32,973 nt of DNA from an uncultured Sporosarcina sp. Its GTDB lineage: Bacteria > Bacillota > Bacilli > Bacillales_A > Planococcaceae. The translations under genes were made by a program, and so were the position numbers. The stretch covers positions 1 to 32,973 of the forward strand of contig CANSAF010000030.1 of the NCBI GenBank assembly GCA_947644645.1. Direction: 5' to 3'. The notes under the pieces are model-generated. The model did not search any database. It saw only the letters and a program-made list of their open reading frames with translations, and was not told where the DNA came from. Each line of letters opens with the position of its first letter. The first letter of the stretch is position 1. Positions 2,477 to 23,240 of this stretch are shown here, in pieces.

Positions 2477-3111
2477 ATGATGGGGAAAATTCAACGTTAT
2501 AGAGGGACGAAACTGAATACGAAAGGTTGGCAACAAGAGGCGGCACTTCGTATGTTAATGAATAATTTAGATGAAGAAGTCGCGGAGCATCCAGAAGAAC
2601 TCGTTGTTTACGGCGGAATTGGGAAAGCAGCTCGAAATTGGGAAGCGTTCGATGCGATTGTTCGTTCATTAAAAGAATTGGAAAATGATGAAACATTACT
2701 TGTGCAATCAGGAAAACCTGTAGCTATTTTCAAATCACATACGGATGCACCGAAAGTTTTAATTGCCAATTCAAATCTTGTTCCAGCTTATGCCAATTGG
2801 GAAACTTTTCACGAACTCGACCAAAAAGGACTCATGATGTATGGACAAATGACGGCGGGAAGTTGGATTTATATTGGCTCACAAGGAATTGTCCAAGGTA
2901 CATACGAGACATTCGCGGAGCTTGCAAAACAACATTTCGGAGAATCTTTAAAAGGAACGATTACTGTCACAGCAGGGCTTGGGGGCATGGGCGGTGCACA
3001 GCCACTAGCGGTGACGATGGCTGGCGGTGTTTGTATCGGAATCGAAGTCGATGAAACAAGAATCGACCGTCGAATTGAAACACGTTATACCGACTTGAAA
3101 ACAGATTCAAT
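2477..3111 (+). pseudogene. hutU: Urocanate hydratase, 5' fragment fused to hutI remnant
   Basis: About 211 codons of urocanase remain of the usual ~550. The NAD-binding stretch [15 protein letters not shown] is present, as are [12 protein letters not shown] and [12 protein letters not shown]. The C-terminal half with the catalytic cysteine region is missing. At about 3108-3114 the sequence passes directly into imidazolonepropionase (hutI) sequence in another frame. Reading on in the hutU frame adds a nonsense tail and stops at 3166. The front end is well kept: ribosome site AGAGGGGG at 2463-2470 and ATG ATG at 2477. The simplest explanation is a single deletion of roughly 1.7 kb that removed the end of hutU and the start of hutI. 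The product should be inactive. Confidence 0.92.
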
Positions 3112-3705
3112 GATGTTTTTTGTGAAGTTGGGGTATTTACACCGGAACAAACGGAGCGAATTTTAGAAGCAGGGAAAAAATATGGATTGATCCCCAAAAT
3201 TCATGCAGATGAAATTGAACCATATGGGGGCGCAGAACTTGCGGCAAAAGTTGGCGCGATTTCGGCGGAGCATTTATTAAAAGCGTCTGAGACGGGGATG
3301 GATAAGATGGCAAAAGCGGGGACGGTCGCTTGTTTATTACCCGCAACGGCACTTTACTTACGAGAGCAAGCAGCAGAAGGACGAAAAATGATTGACAAAG
3401 GCGTTCCTGTCGAGATTTCAACGGATTGTAACCCGGGTTCCTCGCCAACAACTTCCATGCCACTTGTGATGAATTTGGCTTGTATTTCCATGCGCTTAAC
3501 CCCTGCGGAAGCCTTAACCGCAGCAACGTATAATGCAGCTTGCGCGATTGGAATGGAAGATCAAGTAGGCTCATTGGAAGTCGGAAAACAAGGAGATTTC
3601 GTCCTTTGGGATATTGAAAACTACCAGAAGTTACAATATTTATTTGGCGTAAATCATGTGAAAAACGTGTGGAAAAAAGGGAAGCAGGTCGTTGGAAATG
3701 ATTGA
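3112..3705 (+). pseudogene. hutI: Imidazolonepropionase, 3' fragment
   Basis: About 197 codons remain of the usual ~420. In frame from 3112 it reads [13 protein letters not shown], then KIHADEIEPYGGAELAA, STDCNPGSSPT and MGLAC-like helices, all typical of HutI. The N-terminal part with the HxH metal ligands and the start codon is gone. A GTG/ATG-type internal start exists only around 3187, which would give a half enzyme. The frame differs from that of the hutU fragment in front, so no continuous fusion protein can be made. The stop at 3703-3705 overlaps the start of hutH, showing this was once a translationally coupled hutU-hutI-hutH operon. Confidence 0.92.
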
Positions 3706-5176
3706 ATTAACAGGAGAAACGTTAACATTATTAGAAATGAAGCAGTTATTAAGTCCTGGGGAAAAAGTATATTTAAATAAAGAAGCATTAGAAAAAGTCC
3801 AGAAAAGTCGTCAAGCTGTGGAGAAAATTGTTCGTGAAAATCGGACAATTTATGGCATTAATACAGGTTTTGGGAAATTTAGTGATGTGCATATTGATGA
3901 AAAAGATACGCGCGTGCTTCAACTGCACTTAATTCGCTCACATGCTTGTGGGGTCGGGGAACCTTTTCCAGAAAAAGTCTCCAGAGCGATGCTGATTTTA
4001 CGATTAAACGCATTGTTGAAAGGTTTTTCAGGAATTCGTGAGGAAGTTTTGGAACGTTTTGTTTATATGATTAACCATGAAATTCATCCAGTTGTTCCGC
4101 AACAAGGATCACTCGGGGCTTCCGGTGATTTAGCGCCCCTTGCTCATTTGGCGCTCGTCCTACTCGGTGAAGGTTTTGTTTGGCAAAACGGAGAAGTTGT
4201 ATCGAGCGAGGGAATTTGGGAGAAACATAAATTAGCACCGATTGTTTTAGAGGCGAAAGAAGGGCTCGCACTTATTAACGGTACACAAGCGATGACTGCG
4301 CAAGGCGTTGTTAATTATTTGGAAGCTGAAAAGCTCGCTTATGATAGTGAATGGATTGCGGCGATGACGATGGAAGCGCTTTATGGCATTACGGACGCAT
4401 TTCATCCCGCGATTCACGAAGCGCGCGGCTATCCGGAACAAATTGAGGTAGCGGGTCGCATGTTAGAGTGGCTAGAGGGGAGTCGTTTAACAACTGTCCA
4501 AGGAGAAAAGCGCGTACAAGATGCATATTCGATTCGCTGTATTCCACAAGTGCACGGGGCGAGCTGGCAAGTGCTTGGTTATGTGAAGGAGAAACTAGAA
4601 ATCGAAATGAATGCTGCGACAGATAATCCGCTTATTTTTGATGAAGGAGAAACGGTTGTATCAGGCGGCAATTTTCACGGCCAACCGATTGCCTTTGCGA
4701 TGGATTTCTTGAAAGTTGGAGTTGCGGAACTGGCGAATATTTCAGAGCGCAGAGTCGAACGTTTGGTGAATCCGCAATTGAATGAAGGTTTGCCACCATT
4801 TTTAAGCGCTGAACCAGGACTTCAATCTGGGGCAATGATTTTACAATACGCGGCTGCGAGTTTAGTTTCCGAAAATAAAACGCTTGCACATCCTGCTTCA
4901 GTCGATTCAATCCGATCTTCAGGCAATCAAGAAGATCATGTATCGATGGGAACAATTGGCGCAAGACATGCTTATTCAATCATAGAAAATGCGCGAAAAG
5001 TGTTGGCAATTGAAGCGCTTTGTGCGATGACAAGTTGTTTAATTCGCGGTAGTGAAAAAATGGGGGAGAAAACTTTTGGTAAATTACAGAAACTGAATGA
5101 AGTTACTGAACCAATTGGAGAAGACCGCGTGTATTCTATAGATGTTGAAAGAGTAGCAGCTTGGTTGAAAGGGTAA
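3698..5176 (+). CDS. hutH: Histidine ammonia-lyase, full length but pathway partners broken
   Basis: Deaminates L-histidine to trans-urocanate, the first step of histidine degradation. About 492 residues, near the family's usual ~505. The MIO-forming Ala-Ser-Gly is present in [13 protein letters not shown] near residue 141. Other active-site segments are kept: [43 protein letters not shown] and QEDHVSMG. In the stretch before QEDHVSMG the usual SIP(T/S)SA reads SIRSSG, an unusual Arg for Pro that may mark relaxed selection. ATG 3698 is preferred over TTG 3692; both overlap the hutI remnant. No hutP, hutG or transporter lies nearby. If expressed, it would make urocanate that the hutU fragment cannot process. 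Confidence 0.9.
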
Positions 5177-5216: not shown

Positions 5217-5726
5217 ATGGATGTGAAATTTCCAATTGGCAAACTACAAGTACCAGAGAAAGTAACATTGGCGGATGTTTCAGAATGGCTGCAAGAAATT
5301 GACAGGTACACAGATTAATTAAGAGAAGTCGTCGGGACATTGGATGAGGAACAATTGCAGAAAACGTATCGAGAAGGAAGTTATACAGTTCGACAACTCA
5401 TTCACCATATCGTGGATTCGCAGTTAATTATGTTCGGGCGTTTGAAACTAGCTTTAACAGATGATAACCCAGTCGTTCCAGCATTCGATCAAGATAAATG
5501 GGCAGTTCAACCAGATACGGAACTCCCTGTTGAAACATCTATTAAAATTTTAGAAGGCATAAATGCGCGCATTGTTGCGTTGGGAAGCAGCTTGACGGCG
5601 GAACAACTAGATCGCGTATTTACACATGAACATAACGGAGAAATTACAGTCGGGACGAAACTAGCTAAATTATGTTGGCACGAGAAACATCATTTAGCGC
5701 ATATTAAACTTGCATTGGAAAATTAA
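5217..5726 (+). pseudogene. DinB/YfiT-type putative metal-dependent hydrolase with in-frame stop
   Basis: Reading from ATG 5217 (ribosome site GGAGG at 5204-5208) gives MDVKFPIGKLQVPEKV up to DRYTD, then TAA at 5316-5318. The same frame continues without a break into LREVVGTLDEEQLQKTY and a complete YfiT-like domain. The metal-ligand histidines are in VRQLIHHIVDSQ and in the C-terminal WHEKHHLAHI. Relatives include B. subtilis YfiT and the bacillithiol transferase BstA. The expected residue at the stop is Glu or Gln, so a single base change is enough to explain it. Restart at TTG 5340 could give a 128-residue protein lacking the first helix. Its position after the broken hut locus suggests local gene decay, although a sequencing error at one base cannot be excluded. 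Confidence 0.8.
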
Positions 5727-5732
5727 AGATAG

Positions 5733-5777
5733 AAAGACGTTCAGTAGATTCTTGGTGGAATCTATTGGATGTCTTTT
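5733..5777 (+). terminator. Rho-independent terminator
   Basis: AAAGACGTTCAGTAGATTC pairs with GAATCTATTGGATGTCTTT, followed by a run of seven T. It closes the transcript of the YfiT-like pseudogene. Confidence 0.85.
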
Positions 5778-5862
5778 TTTATGGCGTTGAAGAGTTTTTT
5801 GGGGGAGAGTGGTAGGTTAAAAGTTGATTGTATTTTTGGTTTTTTAGTAGGAAATTGCTCTT

Positions 5863-5988
5863 GCGCGGATAAACAGTGCTGGGGCGCGGATAAACCACCG
5901 CCAAGCGCGGATAACGCCCCTCGAGCCGCGGATAAACCACGTCTGAACACGGATAAACTACCGCCAAGCGCGGATAACCCAACCCCCC
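5863..5988. repeat. Tandem array, six 21-bp units with core GCGCGGATAA
   Basis: Units start at 5863, 5884, 5905, 5926, 5947 and 5968, exactly 21 bp apart. The first ten bases follow GCGCGGATAA (units 4 and 5 vary at one or two of the first three bases). The remaining 11 bases are variable but C-rich; CACCGCCAA or TACCGCCAA recurs. The array lies between the terminator at 5777 and a candidate extended -10 promoter at 6031. Because 21 is a multiple of three, several frames stay open across it, so the open frames do not by themselves argue for a protein. A related array with TCCGCGC cores and the same period is at 22216-22299. Confidence 0.9.
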
Positions 5989-6030: not shown

Positions 6031-6039
6031 TGCTATACT
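6031..6039 (+). promoter_or_regulatory. Extended -10 promoter candidate for the exonuclease gene
   Basis: TGC-TATACT matches the extended -10 pattern TGN-TATAAT. No good -35 lies 17 bp upstream, which is common for extended -10 promoters. The ribosome site GGAGG follows at 6058. Confidence 0.45.
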
Positions 6040-6072: not shown

Positions 6073-6960
6073 TTGAATACAAATGAAAAACCACATATTT
6101 TAATTATTGACGGGATGGCGCTTCTGTTCCGTTCATTTTTTGCGACTTCTGCGATGGGACATTTTTTCCCGAATCAAGCGGGTGTACCGACAAATGGTGT
6201 GCAAGGATTTTTGCGCCATACGATGACAGCCAAAACAATTTTTCAACCGACGCATTTAGCCGTTTGTTGGGATATGGGGGCGCATACTTTCCGAAATGAT
6301 TTGTACGATGGCTATAAAGCGAATCGTCCGGCGCCACCTGAAGAACTTGTGCCACAATTTGATATGGCGAGAAGTGCTTCGGAAGCGATGGGCTGGAAAA
6401 GTTACGGTGAAAAAGGTATGGAAGCAGACGATTTGATCGGTTCGATGATTGCGCACTGGGACGGAAAAGCGAATATTACGGTCGTGAGTGGCGATAAAGA
6501 TTTACTGCAATTGCTACGTCCAGGTGTACAAATCGCATTGATTAAAAAAGGGTATAGCGAATATGATATTTATACAGAAGAACGTTTTACTGAAGAATAC
6601 GGCGTAACACCTTTACAATTTATTGATATTAAAGCATTTACTGGAGATAGTGCGGATGGTTATCCAGGAGTGAAAGGCATCGGTCCGAAAACGGCGCTGA
6701 CACTTATTCAGAAATACAAGTCGGTAGATGGCGTCGTAGCGGCTTTGGATGAATTAACACCTGCTCGTCGAAAGAATATTGAGGCAGATATGGACATGCT
6801 GCATCTTTCTAGAAAACTGGCGGAAATCCATTGTGACTTAGAAGTCGAGTCGGCGATTGAAGAAATGACGATTCCGCTTTATGATGCGGCTGTCCAACAG
6901 CAACTTGAACAACTGGGTTATTCTCTTGTCATTCGACATGCCAATTCTTTATTTAATTAA
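6073..6960 (+). CDS. 5'-3' exonuclease (PolA N-terminal-domain type, YpcP-like)
   Basis: A stand-alone 295-residue flap/5'-3' exonuclease related to the N-terminal domain of DNA polymerase I; B. subtilis YpcP is the nearest type known to me. Metal-binding acidic clusters occur in order: ILIIDGMALLFRSFFA near the start, CWDMGAHTFRND, MEADDLIGSM and VVSGDKDLLQL. The helix-hairpin-helix region is TGDSADGYPGVKGIGPKTA. It would cut 5' flaps and RNA primers during lagging-strand synthesis and repair. The start is a TTG at 6073, 10 nt after GGAGG; the nearby ATG at 6083 is out of frame. Length matches the family. It forms a single-gene unit behind the 21-bp array. Confidence 0.88.
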   Translation: MNTNEKPHILIIDGMALLFRSFFATSAMGHFFPNQAGVPTNGVQGFLRHTMTAKTIFQPTHLAVCWDMGAHTFRNDLYDGYKANRPAPPEELVPQFDMARSASEAMGWKSYGEKGMEADDLIGSMIAHWDGKANITVVSGDKDLLQLLRPGVQIALIKKGYSEYDIYTEERFTEEYGVTPLQFIDIKAFTGDSADGYPGVKGIGPKTALTLIQKYKSVDGVVAALDELTPARRKNIEADMDMLHLSRKLAEIHCDLEVESAIEEMTIPLYDAAVQQQLEQLGYSLVIRHANSLFN

Positions 6961-7096: not shown

Positions 7097-7645
7097 GTGG
7101 GAACGAGTTCCAGAAAAATTGAAATATTGGAAGCAGCTTCTAAAGTGGTTGCGGAAAAAGGGATTTTTAATTTAACATTTGACGCTGTTGCAAAAGAAGC
7201 GGGGTTAAGTAAAGGCGGATTATTGTATCATTTCCCTTCAAAAGAAGTGCTTGTGGAAGAAATGGTTGAACATTTAGCGGGGAATTACCGACGTAAAATT
7301 GATGAGCAAGCAACATCGGACGCTGTAGAAGAAGGTAAGTGGACACGTGCTTATTTAGATGTCACTTTTAAAAATACGTATAAAAATAAAAATATGCATA
7401 CTGGATTGCTTGCTGCAAAAGCGATTAATCCTGAATTACTTCAGCCAATTCGCGATGTTTATCAAGAATGGCAAGAAGCTGTTGATGATGACAATATTGA
7501 TCCGACGCTTGCAACAATTATTCGACTTGCGGCAGATGGGATTTGGCTTGCGGATCTTTTTGACATAAATCCGATTAGTGTAGAAAAGAAAGAAAAAGTC
7601 TATGGTACTTTAAAAAAGTGGATTGATGAAAATGGTCCTAAATAA
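7097..7645 (+). CDS. TetR/AcrR-family transcriptional regulator, probable repressor of the carnitine operon
   Basis: A 182-residue protein with a TetR-type helix-turn-helix at about residues 8-55: ILEAASKVVAEKGIFNLTFD, then VAKEAGLSKGGLLYHFPSKE. The C-terminal part is an all-helical ligand domain with no close match that I recognise. It starts with GTG behind AAGGGAGA. It reads in the same direction as the three catabolic genes 170 bp downstream. A 6-2-6 inverted repeat sits just after their promoter, so local control of that operon is a reasonable inference. The inducer could be carnitine or a CoA-linked intermediate, but nothing in the sequence decides this. Confidence 0.85.
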   Translation: MGTSSRKIEILEAASKVVAEKGIFNLTFDAVAKEAGLSKGGLLYHFPSKEVLVEEMVEHLAGNYRRKIDEQATSDAVEEGKWTRAYLDVTFKNTYKNKNMHTGLLAAKAINPELLQPIRDVYQEWQEAVDDDNIDPTLATIIRLAADGIWLADLFDINPISVEKKEKVYGTLKKWIDENGPK

Positions 7646-7706
7646 CTATTCATAAATGTTGTTCCAATAGGATTTTGCCAATAAAAGCTGGCTTCCTATC
7701 AATTGA

Positions 7707-7721
7707 TTGTAAGCGCTTACT
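7707..7721 (+). promoter_or_regulatory. cre site (CcpA catabolite control)
   Basis: TTGTAAGCGCTTACT fits every position of the cre consensus WTGNAANCGNWNNCW. It ends 13 bp before the -35 box of the carnitine operon, so glucose control of the operon is likely; whether it represses or activates cannot be told from position alone. Confidence 0.75.
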
Positions 7722-7734
7722 TATAGTGAATCAC

Positions 7735-7763
7735 TTGAAACGTTAATCTTGAACCTGTATAGT
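7735..7763 (+). promoter_or_regulatory. Sigma-A-type promoter of the carnitine operon
   Basis: TTGAAA at 7735-7740 and TATAGT at 7758-7763 are separated by exactly 17 bp. Transcription would start near 7770. Confidence 0.7.
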
Positions 7764-7778
7764 CGTACGTATTGAAAA

Positions 7779-7792
7779 ACCGTCTGGACGGT
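7779..7792. promoter_or_regulatory. Inverted repeat ACCGTC-TG-GACGGT, likely TetR-type operator
   Basis: A perfect 6-2-6 inverted repeat lies about 9 bp after the predicted transcription start and 11 bp before the ribosome site. A repressor bound here would block transcription. The regulator gene at 7097 is the obvious candidate. Confidence 0.6.
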
Positions 7793-8711: not shown

Positions 8712-9655
8712 TGAGTAAAAAATTAGCAGTTGTTGGAACAGGCGTAATCGGAAATGGATGGATTGCAAGATTTTTAGCGCAAGGTCATGATGTCGTTGCT
8801 TATGATCCGAGTGAAGGCACGGAAGAACGCACAAGAGAGGTCATTCAAAGAGCTTGGCCATCACTTGAAAAATTAGGCTTAGCAGAAGGCGCGTCGAAAG
8901 ATCGTTTAACATTCGTTCCAACATTGGAAGAAGCGGTGAAAGATGCTTATTTAATTCAGGAAAATGTGCCTGAACGTGAAGAGTTAAAGAAAAATGTACT
9001 GGCAAGCATTGATGCGCATGCGAAAAGCGATGCAATAATTGGTTCAAGTACATCGGGCATTATGCCTTCTGTTTTGCAGAACGGCTTAAAAAATCCGGAA
9101 CGTTTTATCGTTGCACATCCATTTAATCCGGTTTATATTTTACCACTTGTAGAACTTGTTGGTGGAAAACAAACGACAAAAGCAGTGATGGAACAAGCGG
9201 AAGAGTTCTATCAATCTGTTGGGATGAAAACATTGGTCATTCAAAAAGAAATTGAAGGGCATGTTGCAGACCGTTTAATGGAAGCACTTTGGCGTGAATC
9301 ACTGCATTTAGTGAATGATGGCATTGCGACGACAGAAGAAATCGACGCGGCGATTATTTACGGTGCAGGTTTACGTTGGGCACAAATGGGACCATTTTTA
9401 ACATTCCATTTAGCAGGCGGCGATCAAGGCATGCGCCATATGCTAGAACAATTTGGTCCAGCGCTCAAACTACCATGGACGAAATTAGAAGCACCAGAAT
9501 TAACAGATGAACTGAAAGAAAAAGTCATCGAAGGCTGCGAAACACATGCAGGAGATGCATCTGTAGCCGAATTAGAACGTAAACGTAATGAGTTTTTGGT
9601 AAAATTACTAGACTTAGTTGAAGAATATTGGCATGAGCCGAAAGCAAAGGCTTGA
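8711..9655 (+). CDS. cdhA: L-carnitine 3-dehydrogenase
   Basis: A 314-residue member of the 3-hydroxyacyl-CoA dehydrogenase superfamily, the size known for L-carnitine dehydrogenases. The NAD-binding GxGxxG is GTGVIG at residues 9-14. The catalytic region is IGSSTSGIMPS followed by HPFNPVYILPLVELV with His about residue 136. The C-terminal domain carries YGAGLRWAQMGPFLTFHLAGG, as in carnitine dehydrogenases. It oxidises L-carnitine to 3-dehydrocarnitine with NAD+. Unlike fadN in this window it has no crotonase domain. Its start overlaps the cdhC-like stop by one base, indicating translational coupling. Confidence 0.88.
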   Translation: MSKKLAVVGTGVIGNGWIARFLAQGHDVVAYDPSEGTEERTREVIQRAWPSLEKLGLAEGASKDRLTFVPTLEEAVKDAYLIQENVPEREELKKNVLASIDAHAKSDAIIGSSTSGIMPSVLQNGLKNPERFIVAHPFNPVYILPLVELVGGKQTTKAVMEQAEEFYQSVGMKTLVIQKEIEGHVADRLMEALWRESLHLVNDGIATTEEIDAAIIYGAGLRWAQMGPFLTFHLAGGDQGMRHMLEQFGPALKLPWTKLEAPELTDELKEKVIEGCETHAGDASVAELERKRNEFLVKLLDLVEEYWHEPKAKA

Positions 9656-9669
9656 GGAGGAAATTAAAA

Positions 9670-10134
9670 ATGTCATTTATGTATAAAGATCAAGTGCGTG
9701 CAGACTGGGTCGATTATAACGGTCATATGAATGATGCTGAATATGCGCGTGTCTTTAGCTTGGCGGTCGATGCATTTATGGATCATATCGGGCTAGACGC
9801 GGCAGGACGCGAGCAACATCACTATACAATTTTCACGCTTGAAACGCATTTATGTTATTTATTGGAAGCGAATGAAAATGAAGCACTTCAAGTAACTGCT
9901 CAGTTATTAGACGTTGATGAAAAGAGAATGCATATCTTTTTCACATTGGTGAATGGGGATAATGAACTTGTCGCAACGAGCGAACAAATGTTGATGGGCA
10001 TGGACACAACAGCAAATCGTCCAGCACCGTTCCCAGCACCTGTCCAATCAATCATTGACGAGATTTGGTCAAATGATCAAAAGGAAGAAGCGCCAAAACA
10101 AGCAGGTAGAACAATCGGTATTCGTCGAAAATAA
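9670..10134 (+). CDS. cdhB: Hotdog-fold thioesterase, probable betainyl-CoA thioesterase
   Basis: A 154-residue 4HBT-type thioesterase. The active-site motif DWVDYNGHMNDAEYARVF is at residues 12-29, where Asp15 and the NGHMN run match the family. The partner strand ETHLCYLLEA follows. In Pseudomonas the corresponding thioesterase releases glycine betaine from betainyl-CoA in the carnitine pathway, and the gene order here supports the same role. The ATG at 9670 is preceded by GAGGAGG overlapping the cdhA stop, so the in-frame upstream extension to 9652 is not used. The end of the protein is basic and probably disordered. A strong terminator follows. Confidence 0.82.
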   Translation: MSFMYKDQVRADWVDYNGHMNDAEYARVFSLAVDAFMDHIGLDAAGREQHHYTIFTLETHLCYLLEANENEALQVTAQLLDVDEKRMHIFFTLVNGDNELVATSEQMLMGMDTTANRPAPFPAPVQSIIDEIWSNDQKEEAPKQAGRTIGIRRK

Positions 10135-10712: not shown

Positions 10713-11372
10713 CTACAACGCCAAACCTTTCTCAATTTCTGCTCGATCATAATCAGCAACCCATTCATAATGCGTTTCGTAAAGCGTGCGTAATCGTTCA
10801 GGTTTTCGTGCAATGACTTCACAACCGCGGTCATCATAAATAAAAAAGATGATGTCTTTTGTTTGATTCACAAAGAAAACATCCGGATAATGCACAAAAT
10901 CTGTACCAAACTTTGGTTTTAATGGGAAATCTTCATGGATTGCTCCTTTTAGCAAACCTTCTATTTTCAAATCTTGCACTTTACAACATAAAGAGAATTG
11001 CTGCATTTCGAACAACTCTTGCTTATCCGTCTCAAAAGGATAAGGATATGTCTTCACTTGAAGATGTTTTAGTTGGCGTTGATCTTTCAAGTTTGGCGCA
11101 TATACTTTTATTTTTTGTGTTTGTTGTCCGACTTCCAAGTAAATATTTGTCACTAATATTAAATCATCATCTTTGTCAAATAAAGCTTTAAATATTGTAT
11201 GTACTTGCTTATATACTGTATTGAATCGTTCTAAATTCAACTGATCGTTTTCTGTAAATTGATAAATTTCTTCGCCGAGCGAAAAATGAGTACGCTTGTC
11301 CCATTGATGATAAATGCTTGGGATTAATTGTACTGTAGGGGAATTTTGTTCGAGATAAGTATTGATTTTCAT
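10713..11372 (-). CDS. DUF3885-like domain protein
   Basis: A 219-residue soluble protein. The C-terminal third, DIIFFIYDDRGCEVIARKPERL then LYETHYEWVADYDR, matches the pattern I associate with DUF3885 proteins of Bacillus (the FDDRG.(D/E)VIA core). The N-terminal part is mixed alpha/beta with LVTNIYLEV. No catalytic motif is evident and the biological role of the family is unknown to me. In Bacillus such genes often lie among other small unknown genes of toxin or immunity loci; here they stand with a lipoprotein and membrane proteins. The ribosome site GAAAGGTAG precedes the ATG. Confidence 0.7.
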   Translation of the reverse strand: MKINTYLEQNSPTVQLIPSIYHQWDKRTHFSLGEEIYQFTENDQLNLERFNTVYKQVHTIFKALFDKDDDLILVTNIYLEVGQQTQKIKVYAPNLKDQRQLKHLQVKTYPYPFETDKQELFEMQQFSLCCKVQDLKIEGLLKGAIHEDFPLKPKFGTDFVHYPDVFFVNQTKDIIFFIYDDRGCEVIARKPERLRTLYETHYEWVADYDRAEIEKGLAL

Positions 11373-11404
11373 AGTTTGCTACCTTTCTAGGATTATTAAT
11401 TTTA

Positions 11405-11914
11405 TTAAGCAGTAGGGAATGAAAATAAAATGAGTGCAACCAATAACGAAGAACCCGCCCAAGTTATCATTAGTTTTCTTCTAATGGTCATCTGTTTTGG
11501 CATAACTTTATGAATAAGGGACAGAACAAATAGATTAATCAAAAATAAAAAGTAATACGTGACGAAAAACATAATCCATGGCTGGGAAGAAATAAGAGAT
11601 TCCAAAGGTGTTGTAAAAAAGGTTGTGATAAAAATCAGCATGGAAATCGCTAGTAAAATTAAAATAATGACGAACATCTTATCCCAAATTTTATGCCGCA
11701 TAAATTCATTAGGCCTTTTTTCAGCGTAATTAAAAATAAGTTGATTGTAGATAAAAAATATAAATGCAATGGAGATGAACAGAATTAGTTGTTGAATTCC
11801 AGCATCAGTTAATTCAAAATAAACAATGCTAATATAACGATCGGCTGCAAATGTAAAAAGAATTAACATGAAAATGGGGATGCATTGTTTTAATATATAG
11901 GACTTATTTATCAT
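11405..11914 (-). CDS. Multi-pass membrane protein, unknown function
   Basis: A 169-residue protein with about five predicted membrane segments, beginning near residues 11-30, 40-60, 80-105, 112-135 and 148-167. Basic loops such as MPKQMTIRRK lie between the last two. No family is recognised. ATG 11914 is 6 nt behind AGGAGG, whereas the in-frame upstream ATG at 11932 lies ahead of that ribosome site, so 11914 is chosen. It sits between the lipoprotein gene and the DUF3885-like gene, all in the same direction. Confidence 0.65.
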   Translation of the reverse strand: MINKSYILKQCIPIFMLILFTFAADRYISIVYFELTDAGIQQLILFISIAFIFFIYNQLIFNYAEKRPNEFMRHKIWDKMFVIILILLAISMLIFITTFFTTPLESLISSQPWIMFFVTYYFLFLINLFVLSLIHKVMPKQMTIRRKLMITWAGSSLLVALILFSFPTA

Positions 11915-14560: not shown

Positions 14561-15073
14561 TCATTTTTTAAGCGGTTCCACTTTCACAAATGCTAAAATT
14601 TCCGCATTTGGTTCATAAGGAAGCGATTGGAGTTGACTGGGGCGATTTTTTCCACCATTATCATGCACAAATAACCAAAGTCCATTTTCTTTTTCTTCGT
14701 AACCAACAACAGAGACCCAGTGATAATCATAGGAATAGCGCCCGCGCCAATGCCATGTAAACCATTTATCAAATTTTGCCGCAACAGGTCGGCCTTCATC
14801 GATTTGTTTTTTCATCTCTTCTATAGAACACTTTTGAACAAGCCAATCGTCCCCAAGAATTTTTGATAAGTTCCGAATGAAGTGATGCGTAAATAATCCA
14901 ATCGGTGTGCCACCAAGTTTTTTGTAGAGCAAATTAATATTTTGAAATTGACCCGGCAAGAAAAAGTCGAGGATTGCATAAGCTGTTACAGGACCACAGG
15001 CTGAATTTCGATAATATTTATGAATGTCCTCATCATATTGTGATTTTTTCTTTAATGAAATAGTTTTTTTCAT
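14561..15073 (-). CDS. C39-like (papain-fold) cysteine peptidase family protein
   Basis: A 170-residue protein with a peptidase C39-like layout. The nucleophile is likely Cys26 in NSACGPVTAYAIL, the general base His118 in YDYHWVSVVGY, and the third residue Asp138 or Asn139 in FVHDNGGKNRPS. A lysine-rich N-terminus (MKKTISLKKKSQYDED) replaces a signal peptide, so it appears cytosolic. No bacteriocin or transporter gene is near, so it is not an obvious leader peptidase. It starts with ATG behind GGAGATGA and is divergent from fadN; its upstream region contains a FadR-like box. It heads the minus-strand cluster later split by the tnpB element. Confidence 0.72.
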   Translation of the reverse strand: MKKTISLKKKSQYDEDIHKYYRNSACGPVTAYAILDFFLPGQFQNINLLYKKLGGTPIGLFTHHFIRNLSKILGDDWLVQKCSIEEMKKQIDEGRPVAAKFDKWFTWHWRGRYSYDYHWVSVVGYEEKENGLWLFVHDNGGKNRPSQLQSLPYEPNAEILAFVKVEPLKK

Positions 15074-15148
15074 TCAATCATCTCCATCAAAAGAAGTGTT
15101 TGTTCCTTCATATTATCACGTTTATCACCAGTTCTGTATAAAATGAAA

Positions 15149-15166
15149 TGAATGACCAATCATTAA
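15149..15166. promoter_or_regulatory. FadR-type operator, upstream copy
   Basis: TGAATGA-CCAA-TCATTAA matches the Bacillus FadR consensus (TGAATGA-N4-TCATTCA) with one mismatch. It lies between fadN and the divergent C39-like gene, 26 bp before the -35 of fadN. Confidence 0.65.
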
Positions 15167-15191
15167 TTTTATATTTTATTAGATAAAAATA

Positions 15192-15220
15192 TTGCGAAAA
15201 ATTGATTAATAGATTACAAT
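15192..15220 (+). promoter_or_regulatory. Candidate sigma-A promoter of fadNAE
   Basis: TTGCGA at 15192-15197 and TACAAT at 15215-15220 are separated by 17 bp. The start point would fall near 15227, ahead of the second FadR box. Confidence 0.5.
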
Positions 15221-15263
15221 AATATTCAGAAAGGTTTTTCTTTATATTTTTTTGAAAACTTTA

Positions 15264-15281
15264 TGAATGAGCATTCATTCA
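15264..15281. promoter_or_regulatory. FadR-type operator, perfect inverted repeat
   Basis: TGAATGA-GCAT-TCATTCA is a perfect 7-4-7 inverted repeat equal to the Bacillus FadR box. It lies 12 bp before the ribosome site of fadN. FadR (a TetR-type repressor released by long-chain acyl-CoA) should repress the operon here. Confidence 0.8.
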
Positions 15282-15306
15282 AGAGGGATAAAGGGAGGAA
15301 GAACAC

Positions 15307-17691
15307 GTGGCTTATCAAATAAAAAAAGCAGCTGTATTAGGATCGGGCGTAATGGGTTCTGGCATTGCAGCACATTTAGCGAACATTGGCATTCCAGTAC
15401 TTTTACTAGACATTGTTCCGAATGAATTAACTGAAGCGGAAGAAAAAAAGGGGTTAACATTAGAAAGCCCTGCAGTAAGAAATCGTTTTTCGGCAGGCGC
15501 ATTACAAAAATTAACAAAACAAAAACCAGCACCATTAACGACAAAAAGTAATTTATCACTGATCACTGCAGGGAACTTTGAAGATGATTTGGAACAACTA
15601 AAAGATGTTGATTGGATCATTGAAGTCGTTGTAGAGAATTTAGAAATTAAACAAAACTTATATGAAAAAATTGATGCAGTACGTACACCAGGCACAATCA
15701 TTTCATCAAATACTTCAGGCATCAGCATTGAAGCGATGAAAGAAGGACGCTCTGAAGATTTCCAAAAACATTTCTTAGGTACGCATTTCTTTAATCCACC
15801 GCGTTACTTGAAATTACTGGAAGTTATTCCGGCGAGCACAACAGCACCTGAAGTTGTTGAGTTCATGACAACATTTGGGGAAGATGAGCTCGGAAAAGGT
15901 GTAGTAATCGCGAAAGACACACCAAACTTCATTGCGAATCGAATTGGTACATATGGACTTTTAATTACGCTTCGCGAAATGGAAAAACGTGGGTATTCAA
16001 TTGGGGAAGTTGACTCTGTAACGGGGACGTTAATTGGTCGTCCAAAGTCCGCGACATTTAGAACACTTGATGTAGTGGGGTTAGACACTTTTGTTCATGT
16101 GGCAAAAAATGTCTATGACCAAACAGAAGGTGCAGAACAAGAAGTGTTTGATACGCCAGCATTTATGAAAAAGATGGTTGAAAACGGTTGGCTCGGTGCA
16201 AAAACGAAGCAAGGTTTCTATTTGAAAAAAGGCAAAGAAATTTTAGAATTGGACCGCGAAACATTTGAATACGTTCCAACGAAAAAAATGAAAACGCCTT
16301 CAATTGAAATGGCGAAGCAACAAAAAGGGCTCGCAAACCGTGTGAAATCACTTGTTTACGCGAAGGATCGTACTGGAGAAATCCTATGGAATATCTTCGC
16401 GCCAACGCTTGTTTATTCAGCAGAATTACATGGCGAAATTGCGGATGATATTGTTGCGATTGATAATGCGATGAAATGGGGATTCGGCTGGCAACAAGGT
16501 CCATTTGAAACATGGGATGCAATCGGCGTTGCGAAATCTGTTGAAAAACTGAAAGAAGAAGGTTATGAAATTCCAAGTCTTGTTCAAAGTTTATTGGATA
16601 AAGGCTATGAAACCTTCTATAAAGAAGAAGACGGGGAGCTTTACTATTTCAACGGCGAATCATATGTAGCTGTTCCTGTAAATGAAAAAGTCATTGATTT
16701 AAAACGTTATAAAAAGAAGCACGGCGTTCTGAAGAAAAATTCTGGTGCGAGTTTAATTGATTTAGGGGACGGGGTTTTATTACTCGAATTCCATTCACCA
16801 TCGAATGCGATTGGTCTCGATATTATTCAAATGATCAATTATTCAATTGAAGAAGTTGAGAAAAATTACAAAGGGCTTGTTATTGGAAACCAAGGCAAAA
16901 ACTTCTGTGTCGGTGCGAACTTAGGGTTAATTTTAATGGAAGCACAGGATGATAATATTTTCGAATTAGATTTTGTCGTTCGTTCATTCCATCAAGCGAT
17001 GCAAAATATTAAGTATGCGAAAAAGCCTATTGTTGCGGCACCATTTGCGATGACACTTGGTGGAGGTGCTGAGGTTTGTTTACCGGCAGCGCATATTCAA
17101 GCAACAACTGAAACGTATATGGGATTAGTAGAAGTAGGTGTTGGTTTAATTCCAGGTGGGGGCGGAAACGTCAACTTATATAAGAAGCATTTAAAAGGAT
17201 TACCAAACGGCGTTGGAATGGATTATCAAAACGTGGCGACTAAAGTATTTGAATCGATTGCAATGGCAAAAGTTTCAACTTCAGGCGATGAAGCACGTGA
17301 TAACAACTTCCTAGATTTTGCAGATGGCGTCAGCGTCAATGCAGATCACCAAATCTACGATGCGAAACAAGCAGCACTCGCTTTATATGAAGCTGGCTAT
17401 AAAGCACCGAAACGTGAAAAAATTCCAGTAACGGGTGCACCAGGCTACGCAACATTATTACTTGGCGCGGAAGGTATGCATTTATCAGGTTTCATCAGCG
17501 ATCATGATTTGAAAATCGCAAAAAAACTTGCTTATGTAATCGCAGGCGGAGAAGTTCCATACGGCACACTTGTCGATGAACAATACTTACTAGATTTAGA
17601 AAGAGAAGCCTTCCTAAGCCTAGTCGCGGACCCACTTTCACAACAACGTATGCAACATATGCTTGTGAAGGGAAAACCGTTGAGAAATTAA
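15307..17691 (+). CDS. fadN: Bifunctional 3-hydroxyacyl-CoA dehydrogenase / enoyl-CoA hydratase
   Basis: Catalyses the middle two steps of fatty-acid beta-oxidation. The 794-residue size agrees with B. subtilis FadN. The N-terminal dehydrogenase domain begins with the NAD motif LGSGVMGSGIA (residues about 11-21); its catalytic His is about residue 160 in HFFNPPRYLKLLEVI. The C-terminal crotonase domain carries GKNFCVGANLGL and PFAMTLGGGAEV for the oxyanion hole, then VGVGLIPGGGG. It starts with GTG 8 nt behind GGGAGGA. The gene heads the fadN-fadA-fadE operon, controlled by two FadR boxes. A 291-bp gap filled with structured repeats separates it from fadA. Confidence 0.95.
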   Translation: MAYQIKKAAVLGSGVMGSGIAAHLANIGIPVLLLDIVPNELTEAEEKKGLTLESPAVRNRFSAGALQKLTKQKPAPLTTKSNLSLITAGNFEDDLEQLKDVDWIIEVVVENLEIKQNLYEKIDAVRTPGTIISSNTSGISIEAMKEGRSEDFQKHFLGTHFFNPPRYLKLLEVIPASTTAPEVVEFMTTFGEDELGKGVVIAKDTPNFIANRIGTYGLLITLREMEKRGYSIGEVDSVTGTLIGRPKSATFRTLDVVGLDTFVHVAKNVYDQTEGAEQEVFDTPAFMKKMVENGWLGAKTKQGFYLKKGKEILELDRETFEYVPTKKMKTPSIEMAKQQKGLANRVKSLVYAKDRTGEILWNIFAPTLVYSAELHGEIADDIVAIDNAMKWGFGWQQGPFETWDAIGVAKSVEKLKEEGYEIPSLVQSLLDKGYETFYKEEDGELYYFNGESYVAVPVNEKVIDLKRYKKKHGVLKKNSGASLIDLGDGVLLLEFHSPSNAIGLDIIQMINYSIEEVEKNYKGLVIGNQGKNFCVGANLGLILMEAQDDNIFELDFVVRSFHQAMQNIKYAKKPIVAAPFAMTLGGGAEVCLPAAHIQATTETYMGLVEVGVGLIPGGGGNVNLYKKHLKGLPNGVGMDYQNVATKVFESIAMAKVSTSGDEARDNNFLDFADGVSVNADHQIYDAKQAALALYEAGYKAPKREKIPVTGAPGYATLLLGAEGMHLSGFISDHDLKIAKKLAYVIAGGEVPYGTLVDEQYLLDLEREAFLSLVADPLSQQRMQHMLVKGKPLRN

Positions 17692-17982: not shown

Positions 17983-19158
17983 ATGCGTGAAGCAGTTATT
18001 GTAGCCGGAGCGAGAACGCCAGTTGGAAGAGCGAAACGAGGCTCCCTGGCAAGTGTTCGACCGGATGATTTAGGGGCGTTGGCAATTCAAGAAACATTAA
18101 GACGTGCCGGCGGATATGAAGGTGCAATTGATGATTTAATTATCGGCTGTGCAATGCCAGAAGCAGAACAAGGTATGAATATGGCAAGAAATATTGGAGC
18201 ACTTGCGGGATTACCAGATACAACACCAGCCATTACAGTAAACCGTTTCTGTTCATCAGGTCTTCAATCAATTGCCTACGGTGCAGAAAGAATTATGCTT
18301 GGGCATTCCAAATCGATTTTAGCAGGCGGCGCGGAGTCGATGAGTATGGTTCCAATGATGGGAAATACAATTCGCCCGAACATTAAACTTGCGGAAACAG
18401 CACCAGAATATTATATGGGCATGGGGCATACGGCTGAACAAGTTGCAACGAAGTACGGCGTCAGTCGCGAAGATCAAGATGCATTTGCAGTACGTTCACA
18501 TGAAAGAGCAGCCGCAGCCATTGCAGCAGGCAAATTTGTCGATGAAATTGTACCAGTTGATGTCATCCAACGTCACGTCGATGACAGCGGTAAATTACAT
18601 GAAAAATCATTTACATTTGAAATGGATGAAGGAGTTCGTCACGGAACAACAACAGAAGTACTCGGAAAACTTCGTCCGGCATTCTCAGTAACAGGTTCAG
18701 TGACAGCTGGAAATGCTTCACAAACTTCTGACGGCGCAGGAGCTGTGCTCATTATGGCCCGTGAAGTAGCGGAAGCTGAAGGATTAACACCAATCGCGAA
18801 ATTCCGTTCATTCGCAGTCGGCGGCGTGCCACCAGAAGTAATGGGGATTGGTCCAATCGAAGCTGTTCCAAAAGCATTAAAACTTGCAGGATTAACAGTC
18901 GATGATATCGATTTATGGGAATTAAACGAAGCGTTTGCTTCACAATCTTTACAAGTAATTCGCCATCTAGGGTTAGATATGGATAAAGTAAACGTTAACG
19001 GTGGTGCAATCGCACTCGGTCACCCACTTGGCGCAACTGGAACAATTTTAACAATTCGTATGATGAACGAACTAAAACGCCAACAAAAACAATTCGGCGT
19101 CGTAACAATGTGCATCGGCGGCGGAATGGGCGCAGCAGGCGTATTCGAAATGCTATAA
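17983..19158 (+). CDS. fadA: Acetyl-CoA acyltransferase (3-ketoacyl-CoA thiolase)
   Basis: Performs the final thiolytic step of beta-oxidation, releasing acetyl-CoA. 391 residues, the same length as B. subtilis FadA. The nucleophilic Cys90 is in VNRFCSSGLQ. LNEAFASQ and the catalytic His347 in GGAIALGHPLGATG follow. The second cysteine, Cys377, is in CIGGGMGAAG. It has a strong ribosome site (GGGAGGAAATTAAAC before ATG). It lies between fadN and fadE with repeat-filled gaps on both sides, unusual for this otherwise compact operon. Confidence 0.96.
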   Translation: MREAVIVAGARTPVGRAKRGSLASVRPDDLGALAIQETLRRAGGYEGAIDDLIIGCAMPEAEQGMNMARNIGALAGLPDTTPAITVNRFCSSGLQSIAYGAERIMLGHSKSILAGGAESMSMVPMMGNTIRPNIKLAETAPEYYMGMGHTAEQVATKYGVSREDQDAFAVRSHERAAAAIAAGKFVDEIVPVDVIQRHVDDSGKLHEKSFTFEMDEGVRHGTTTEVLGKLRPAFSVTGSVTAGNASQTSDGAGAVLIMAREVAEAEGLTPIAKFRSFAVGGVPPEVMGIGPIEAVPKALKLAGLTVDDIDLWELNEAFASQSLQVIRHLGLDMDKVNVNGGAIALGHPLGATGTILTIRMMNELKRQQKQFGVVTMCIGGGMGAAGVFEML

Positions 19159-21754: not shown

Positions 21755-22135
21755 ATGAACACACCTACAGAGTTAAAGTATTCTAAAGAGCACGAATGGG
21801 TAAAAGACGAAAACGGAAACTACCGTATTGGAATTACACATTTCGCACAATCTGAACTGGGCGACATCGTTTTCGTTGAACTTCCAGAAGAAGGCGACGA
21901 TATTGCGGCTGGCGAATCATTCGGTAGCGTTGAGTCTGTTAAAACAGTTTCAGAGTTATATGCACCAATTAGCGGTAAAGTTTTAGAAGTTAACGAAGAA
22001 TTAGAAGATAGTCCAGAACTTGTAAACGAATCTCCATACGAAGAAGCATGGATGATCGTTGTTGAGCCGTCAAACGCTGCAGAGCTAGACGAGTTAATGT
22101 CAGCTGAGCAATACGACGAAATGACAAACGAATAA
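21755..22135 (+). CDS. gcvH: Glycine cleavage system H protein
   Basis: The lipoyl carrier of the glycine cleavage system. In Bacillus it is also the obligatory intermediate from which lipoyl groups are passed to other 2-oxoacid dehydrogenases. 126 residues, the standard length. The lipoylated lysine is Lys63 in [14 protein letters not shown], followed by the conserved [11 protein letters not shown] and [11 protein letters not shown]. It has its own promoter and terminator; the other gcv genes are not in the window, as in B. subtilis, where gcvH also lies apart next to yusI. Confidence 0.96.
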
Positions 22136-22147
22136 TTGTAAATGTAA

Positions 22148-22196
22148 GGAGGCTGTCTCAAAAGTTACGAACTTTTGAGGCGGCTTCTTTTTTATA
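22148..22196 (+). terminator. Terminator after gcvH
   Basis: CTCAAAAGT pairs with ACTTTTGAG, extended by GGCTGT/GCGGCT pairing, with a run of six T at the end. Confidence 0.88.
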
Positions 22197-22215: not shown

Positions 22216-22299
22216 ATGTCCGCAGAAACACTGAAAATGTCCGCGCAATCGGCTATAATGTCCGCACAATTCCTAATAATGTCCGCGCAATCAATATTT
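22216..22299. repeat. Tandem array, four 21-bp units with core ATGTCCGCGC
   Basis: Units start at 22216, 22237, 22258 and 22279, exactly 21 bp apart. Each begins ATGTCCGC, then GC, AC or AG; AAT(C/T) follows in units 2-4. The bases just before each core are A/T-rich (often ATA). The core TCCGCGC is the complement of GCGCGGA, the core of the six-unit array at 5863. It lies between the gcvH terminator and a candidate promoter of yusF. Confidence 0.9.
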
Positions 22300-23068: not shown

Positions 23069-23240
23069 CTCTTATTTAGAGCGGCGGAGGGAAGTGCCCT
23101 GAGAAGCCCGGCAACCAGCACAGCAATGTGAAAAGGTGCCAAATCACGCAAAGTTATTGCTTTGGAAGATGAGAGATTGGATGAACGGTCTATTTAGCGA
23201 ACCTAACCCCTTTCTACTCTTTCGTAGGAAGGGTTTTTTA
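23069..23240 (+). ncRNA. SAM-I (S-box) riboswitch with terminator
   Basis: The aptamer has the S-box signature: TTAGAGCGGCGGAGGGAA, then CCCTGAGAAGCCCGGCAACC, AAAGGTGCCAAATC and GGAAGATGAGAG at the end of P1. The arms CTCTTATTT and AGATGAGAG close it. The terminator at 23205-23239 pairs AACCCCTTTCTAC with GTAGGAAGGGTT and ends in TTTTTT. With S-adenosylmethionine bound, transcription should stop before metN, so uptake is on only when methionine is short. Confidence 0.93.

Follow-up and report, generated by a model that had tools for sequence, protein, structure and literature searches.

The window, by which we mean the whole 32,973-nucleotide stretch of DNA analysed here, comes from an uncultured Sporosarcina sp. 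and contains a tandem array of short direct repeats between two genes on the forward strand. The upstream gene (5340 to 5726, + strand) is predicted to encode a protein of the DinB_2 superfamily (Pfam PF12867, E 5.5e-18). It is followed by an intrinsic terminator, comprised of a 20-pair stem and then a T run (5733 to 5776, + strand), that parts the gene from the array lying beyond it. Downstream of the array is a gene for a 5'-3' exonuclease (6073 to 6960, + strand; Pfam PF02739 and PF01367). The array (5863 to 5977, + strand) contains six CGCGGATAA-type cores that start at 5863, 5884, 5905, 5926, 5947 and 5968, which confirms the original prediction of 21-bp steps throughout with zero slip. 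That prediction let the array run to 5988; its start is correct, but the last core stops at 5977. The 9-mer CGCGGATAA is exact in five of the six cores and the 10-mer GCGCGGATAA in four, copy 4 being CCGCGGATAA and copy 5 ACACGGATAA. TRF recovers the array at 5884-5981 with a score of 91. Comparison of the flanks of 16 arrays showed that the array is preceded by a diverged copy (5841 to 5862, + strand) of an AT-rich leader found elsewhere in this genome. An extended -10-like motif, TGCTATACT, can be read before the exonuclease gene (6031 to 6039, + strand). The motif is present as predicted, but its distance from the last core is approximately 55 bp rather than 45, and a promoter scan found no -35/-10 pair.

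We searched the source genome for two consecutive units (up to one mismatch) and found 63 matches, with none for the backwards-read control. Counting the array in the window, these form 16 arrays at 13 loci. Thus, the predicted recurrence at intergenic sites, with a fixed 21-bp phase and varying spacers, was observed at 13 intergenic places. There are 96 exact copies of CGCGGATAA in the genome, 76 of them inside arrays. The core is without enrichment outside arrays because the 20 remaining copies compare with 16 copies of the reversed 9-mer. Each repeat unit is formed by a 9-bp core and a 12-bp spacer. Eleven of the 16 arrays have five exact cores, and the others have three, four or six. The nine core columns are invariant across the 61 units counted, an invariance for which the search pattern itself selects. 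The spacer columns carry little information, with a weak YYnRA preceding the next core.

When the 16 arrays were set side by side, the leader side was found to be conserved and the opposite side was not. The leader, with the consensus TTTTTgTTAAAAATaTGttnTaG, is recognisable upstream of all 16, the most diverged copies being those of the window array and of L033. At three loci the leader and array are duplicated in tandem as two modules each, with the nearest cores 111-112 bp apart. Terminator-like hairpins are seen by eye upstream of most of these arrays. The similar leader and the tandem duplications would both be expected if the arrays were non-autonomous mobile elements, in which leader and direct repeats form an end that is recognised by a transposase, copied, and tolerated at the 3' ends of genes. 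TnsB, for example, binds its repeats at the ends of Tn7. Mobile elements of this kind, carrying repeats for their own enzyme, are the strongest rival to the explanation we favor, and we return to them below.

The window contains a second array in another dialect (22216 to 22286, + strand) that is formed by four ATGTCCGC cores at 21 bp and alternates two unit types, giving a period of 42. It lies downstream of a gene for the glycine cleavage H protein (21755 to 22135, + strand; Pfam PF01597), with a terminator-like hairpin visible by eye between the two at about 22150-22193. When up to two mismatches were allowed, this second family (TGTCCGC, 21 bp) matched 31 times in the genome, compared to none for the control, spread over about eleven loci by manual count. 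It too has two alternating unit types and some 18-bp steps; one of its arrays, at L088 4562-4710, mixes steps of 21 and 18 bp. Contig C50 (L087) carries a third motif, GTAAACTC, repeated with a 21-bp period. Other period-21 hits in this genome include two at L040 1847-2206 that by eye resemble a Cys-rich coding repeat and one in L031 that is weak. The window also contains a SAM riboswitch at 23069-23175 (Rfam RF00162).

We examined where arrays lie relative to genes, using codon-usage gene calls and gaps of 100-3000 bp. Arrays were found in 10 of 75 convergent gaps, 17 of 373 co-directional gaps, and 1 of 107 divergent gaps (Fisher p 0.0007 for convergent versus divergent). Because arrays are commoner in convergent gaps and nearly absent from divergent ones, they belong to the 3' ends of genes. 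This location does not support the original link between the array and the promoter of the exonuclease gene. In its favor, the array precedes that gene, and of 30 loci in the genus, six including the window have some array at this position (L183, L196, L198, L202, L207 and L210; L186, with a weak 20-bp signal, was left out of this count). However, each of the six uses a different motif, arrays of the window's kind are found at 12 other places, and in one relative (L185) a -10-like motif precedes the exonuclease gene with the array absent. Another relative (L186) has a similar -10-like motif with the weak 20-bp signal only. Given this preference for the 3' ends of genes and the scarcity in divergent gaps, the reading as a promoter operator fails; we rejected an operator of the exonuclease gene on the 3'-end bias, L185 and the differing motifs, and regard it as very improbable. 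We also considered an orientation along the leading strand. The six places listed for G015 all fit, but G046, G246 and G031 do not, as judged from coarse GC skew, and this idea was dropped.

At some loci (L046, L127 and L129) the array starts where the preceding gene has its stop codon, or within that codon, and the array of L046 starts inside the 3' end of that gene. Such positions would suit an RNA element that acts in transcripts as a repeated protein-binding or structured motif. By contrast, the window array follows a terminator, as most of the arrays in this genome seem to do, and a spacing constrained to the single base is unexpected for RNA. We folded five array segments, two being the opposite strands of the window array and three coming from elsewhere, and obtained z-scores of -0.52 to 0.87. 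With folds near those of shuffled sequences and no Rfam hit at the window array, RNA structure was rejected, and we consider a role in RNA to be highly unlikely.

The original prediction mentioned similar arrays in other Planococcaceae, and pattern searches of relatives' genomes bear this out. A pattern of three cores (up to one mismatch) matched 6 of 121 genomes of the family. Four GCGGA cores at 21 bp gave matches in 66 of 261 genomes of the order, which is an upper figure for this core, some of the matching sequences clearly being coding or repeats of other kinds. In 9 of the 261 the reversed control also gave matches; for G204, G227, G200 and G085 these came from arrays with another core. 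In a sample of the class, 7 of 161 genomes matched, four of them outside the family, of which only G350 resembles an intergenic array. A scan of named genomes returned 40 stretches with CGCGGATAA arrays, many in species of Planococcus, Planomicrobium, Neobacillus and Bacillus, together with a few matches, such as one in Nocardioides, that are probably unrelated. In the Neobacillus and Bacillus arrays (L046, L054, L065, L070 and L075) the last or near-last unit is often the variant CGCGGATAT. The three-core pattern had no match in viral contigs and the window array had none in plasmids. These results led us to reject the idea that the CGCGGATAA array comes from a phage or plasmid, and they also count against mobile elements.

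We also surveyed 71 stretches of 20 kb (1.42 Mb) at round preset coordinates in 19 related genomes, which were picked for prior matches to the array patterns so that the rate is not a family average. This yielded 57 non-coding periodic arrays, 41 of which have a period of 20, 21, 40, 42, 62 or 82. Among these 41 two-turn arrays, 12 of which come from the single stretch L151, the period is 21 in 27, 20 in five and 42 in six. Periods of 19, 22 and 24 were absent among the 57; one array has a period of 18, one of 23 and two of 52. Non-coding arrays of period 52, or about five helical turns, were seen in another genus (L099 of G254, 7325-7783, and L098, 5586-5774). At least one two-turn array was found in 12 of the 19 genomes. 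A control shuffled in blocks of two bases returned a single hit, of period 46. We also counted 339 core-to-core steps in 48 arrays, nine having been excluded as coding and the 48 including a few that are doubtful (for example, L096 5124, L098 and L153 19245). The step is 21 bp in 235 cases and 20 bp in 51, with 8 steps of 19, 4 of 18 and 1 of 22. In outgroups, covering 359 kb of 20 further Bacilli, 12 non-coding arrays were found, several of them tRNA clusters by eye, and a single one has a period of 21. That array consists of GTTTAACGATCTGGACAACAA units, occupies L291 (G279:C1) 7109-7521 and comes from another family of Bacilli.

As 21 is a multiple of three and open frames cross some arrays, a hidden coding repeat of seven residues was considered. 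The survey repeats counted as coding have periods that are multiples of three, except for two of period 41 (L110), and none has a period of 20; five arrays of 20 bp and one of 40 bp are found among the non-coding repeats. In addition, shifts within units keep the length but not the frame, as seen by eye. Since period-20 arrays exist in the survey only among the non-coding repeats, coding heptads were rejected, and we give this explanation next to no credence.

We compared core and spacer in eight pairs of orthologous arrays. By register, 2 of 360 core sites, 80 of 384 spacer sites and 389 of 2285 flank sites differ; the loci had been selected by exact matches to three cores, which favors intact cores and inflates core conservation. 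The spacers drift at about the rate of the flanks. Indels within the arrays are whole 21-bp units (21; 18 + 3; 21), barring one 14-bp run at an array edge, and the flanks have 45 indel runs. Between orthologs the number of units also varies by whole units. In a 20-bp dialect, L127 (found by its period) and L129 (found by synteny), from two species, have four and eight units, with near-constant cores and variable spacers by eye. Thus, both core and period vary less than the spacers in the eight pairs, as would be expected from the selection on core and period originally proposed, with a contrast that is inflated by ascertainment. A less biased pair is that of G097 and G105 on the 3' side of an acetyltransferase gene. 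The contrast is small there, with differences at 2 of 45 sites in the cores and 4 of 60 in the spacers, and in L218, which was not caught by the pattern, two of six cores have a change.

These data bear on a neutral explanation, in which the arrays are minisatellites that grow and shrink without function under a mutational process favoring two-turn duplications. Consistent with this are the orthologs differing by whole units, the small contrast between core and spacer in the less biased pair, the mixed steps of 18-21 bp in some arrays, and the tolerance of 3' regions for neutral DNA as well. Long, homogeneous, near-identical arrays also exist in other dialects; the CGCGGATAA arrays of the source genome and of Planococcus have diverged spacers with an exact period. 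On the other hand, the eight pairs retain exact spacing and persistent cores, in a sample biased toward them, while their spacers change at the flank rate, and the shared leader and the five exact cores in 11 of 16 arrays of the source genome also speak against neutral growth. Neutral repeat growth, which the original prediction had listed as a possibility, is therefore a poor account of exact spacing with diverged spacers, and we hold it to be rather unlikely.

The motifs vary both among genomes and inside single genomes. Consensus cores include GCGG-ATAA, GGTG-ATAA, ACCG-ATAA, ACGC-ATAAA, GATC-ATAA, GCCA-ATAA, CGACTAAA, CTATACG and others. From this list, many dialects appear to consist of a variable half followed by a common AT stretch. 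The dialects tend to retain their own step. Arrays of ACGCATAAA and GATCATAA have 20-bp steps in L153, L154, L155 and L157, and the CGCGGATAA arrays of the source genome and of Planococcus have steps of 21 or multiples of it. Mixed 20- and 21-bp steps occur in 3 of 44 CGCGGATAA clusters of named genomes (L063, L066 and L079), 18- and 19-bp steps occur in some arrays, and an ATGCG array in L117 is irregular. A 20-bp dialect, CGNSGATATAAT, was found in all five Planococcus genomes searched (control 0). Further dialects are seen in the Planococcus-group genome G097 (L127 5999-6226, L128 105-382, L149 833-1010 and L150 17828-17984), with no counterpart in the G105 sequence compared. This diversity means that one reader protein cannot serve all dialects, which, like the steps that depart from a fixed spacing, counts against the binding-site explanation given below.

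At a slot next to an acetyltransferase gene of Planococcus, dialects may have replaced one another or arrived independently. We examined 16 of the 30 loci returned. Each of the five nearest orthologues (L214-L218) is accompanied by an array 3' of the gene; four, from Planococcus-group genomes, use a 21-bp dialect and the fifth (L217, G088) a 20-bp one. Of these, L214, L215 and L216 had previously been caught by the core pattern, and L217 and L218 had not. Ten more distant loci have no array within 450 bp, and a fragment, L229, gave a weak 18-bp signal only. In L151 (G105:C1:50001-70000, Planococcus), composite repeats of approximately 235 bp combine GC-rich hairpins with four or five CTATACGAC units spaced by 21 bp, with three to four copies at each of five places inside 20 kb (2804-3862, 9219-9840, 11050-11610, 14942-15544 and 18399-19064). 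A single slot holding different dialects in different species, the several dialects per genome, and the composite of hairpins and arrays in G105 are all compatible with mobile elements. Against these stand the polarity of the arrays, the orthologous arrays that stay in place across several species, and the conservation of cores after insertion, which, in a biased sample, is unexpected for dead copies. Taken together, we judge a mobile origin to be unlikely, if still the most serious competitor.

Of the original interpretation, the recurrence, the presence in relatives and, subject to the ascertainment bias, the constraint on core and period are supported, and the link to the exonuclease promoter is not. 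The explanation we favor, at about an even chance of being correct, is that the arrays are putative chromosomal iteron-like binding sites for DNA-binding proteins arranged head to tail. The exact spacing, the free spacers and the shared leader suggest a protein that recognises every core and makes contact with its neighbor two turns away. Each core, with approximately four to five specific bases and ATAA or a similar AT stretch, would be read by one protein subunit. The bound subunits would line up head to tail along a single helical face, two turns apart (21 bp, with 20 bp in other dialects), and contact between neighboring subunits would constrain the core and the step and leave the intervening bases free. 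We infer both the binding and the oligomerisation of such a reader from this geometry. Instead of working as a promoter operator, a bound row at the 3' ends of genes, often beyond the terminator, may mark a boundary or anchor the chromosome, a role that the location of the arrays suggests. Different dialects would reflect different or diverged proteins. More tentatively, the arrays could belong to a chromosome-organising system of Planococcaceae and some Bacillaceae in which the motif shifts genome-wide with its reader protein and dialects swap at gene-end slots, with the step of approximately two turns kept. If correct, the arrays would represent a widespread DNA element that preserves its helical geometry as its sequence diverges from one species to the next. 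It would also provide a handle on a new class of bacterial DNA-binding protein for which changes in the recognition sequence and in the protein could be observed together.

Several known systems resemble these arrays in part. CRISPR repeats and their unique spacers are each about 25-40 bp long, compared to the 9-bp core and 12-bp spacer found here. The similarity of TTATCCGCG to the DnaA box led us to consider a DnaA-like reader. The sequence agrees with TTATCCACA at seven of nine bases, but the core departs from the TTATNCACA consensus at two positions and the other array dialects do not fit. A search of the source genome for the DnaA C-terminal domain gave one match, and with this single domain a DnaA paralogue was rejected as the reader. 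The REP units of enterobacteria are palindromes in alternating orientation. Like REP and BIME sequences, which contain protein sites, the arrays are dispersed, intergenic and at the 3' ends of genes; unlike them, they are direct repeats in phase and lack marked structure, the five folded segments showing no palindromic stem-loop that folds better than shuffled sequence. In Beggiatoaceae, TAACTGA heptamers also form genome-wide intergenic sets of direct repeats, with few copies in each and a reader that is not known; they lie mostly just upstream of start codons, where a role at the RNA level has been proposed, and the available portion of that report makes no mention of the two-turn spacing that distinguishes the arrays described here (PMC4679880). 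Searches of PubMed Central, mostly covering open-access papers, found no description of such arrays among the papers listed. A Pfam search with six proteins of the window found no Rep protein. The iterons of plasmid replication are head-to-tail direct repeats of approximately 17-22 bp with a conserved core and helical phase. The arrays are likewise tandem direct repeats in the 17-22 bp range and in helical phase, and they differ from iterons in being chromosomal, in having many intergenic copies, and in having dialects that vary within a genome.
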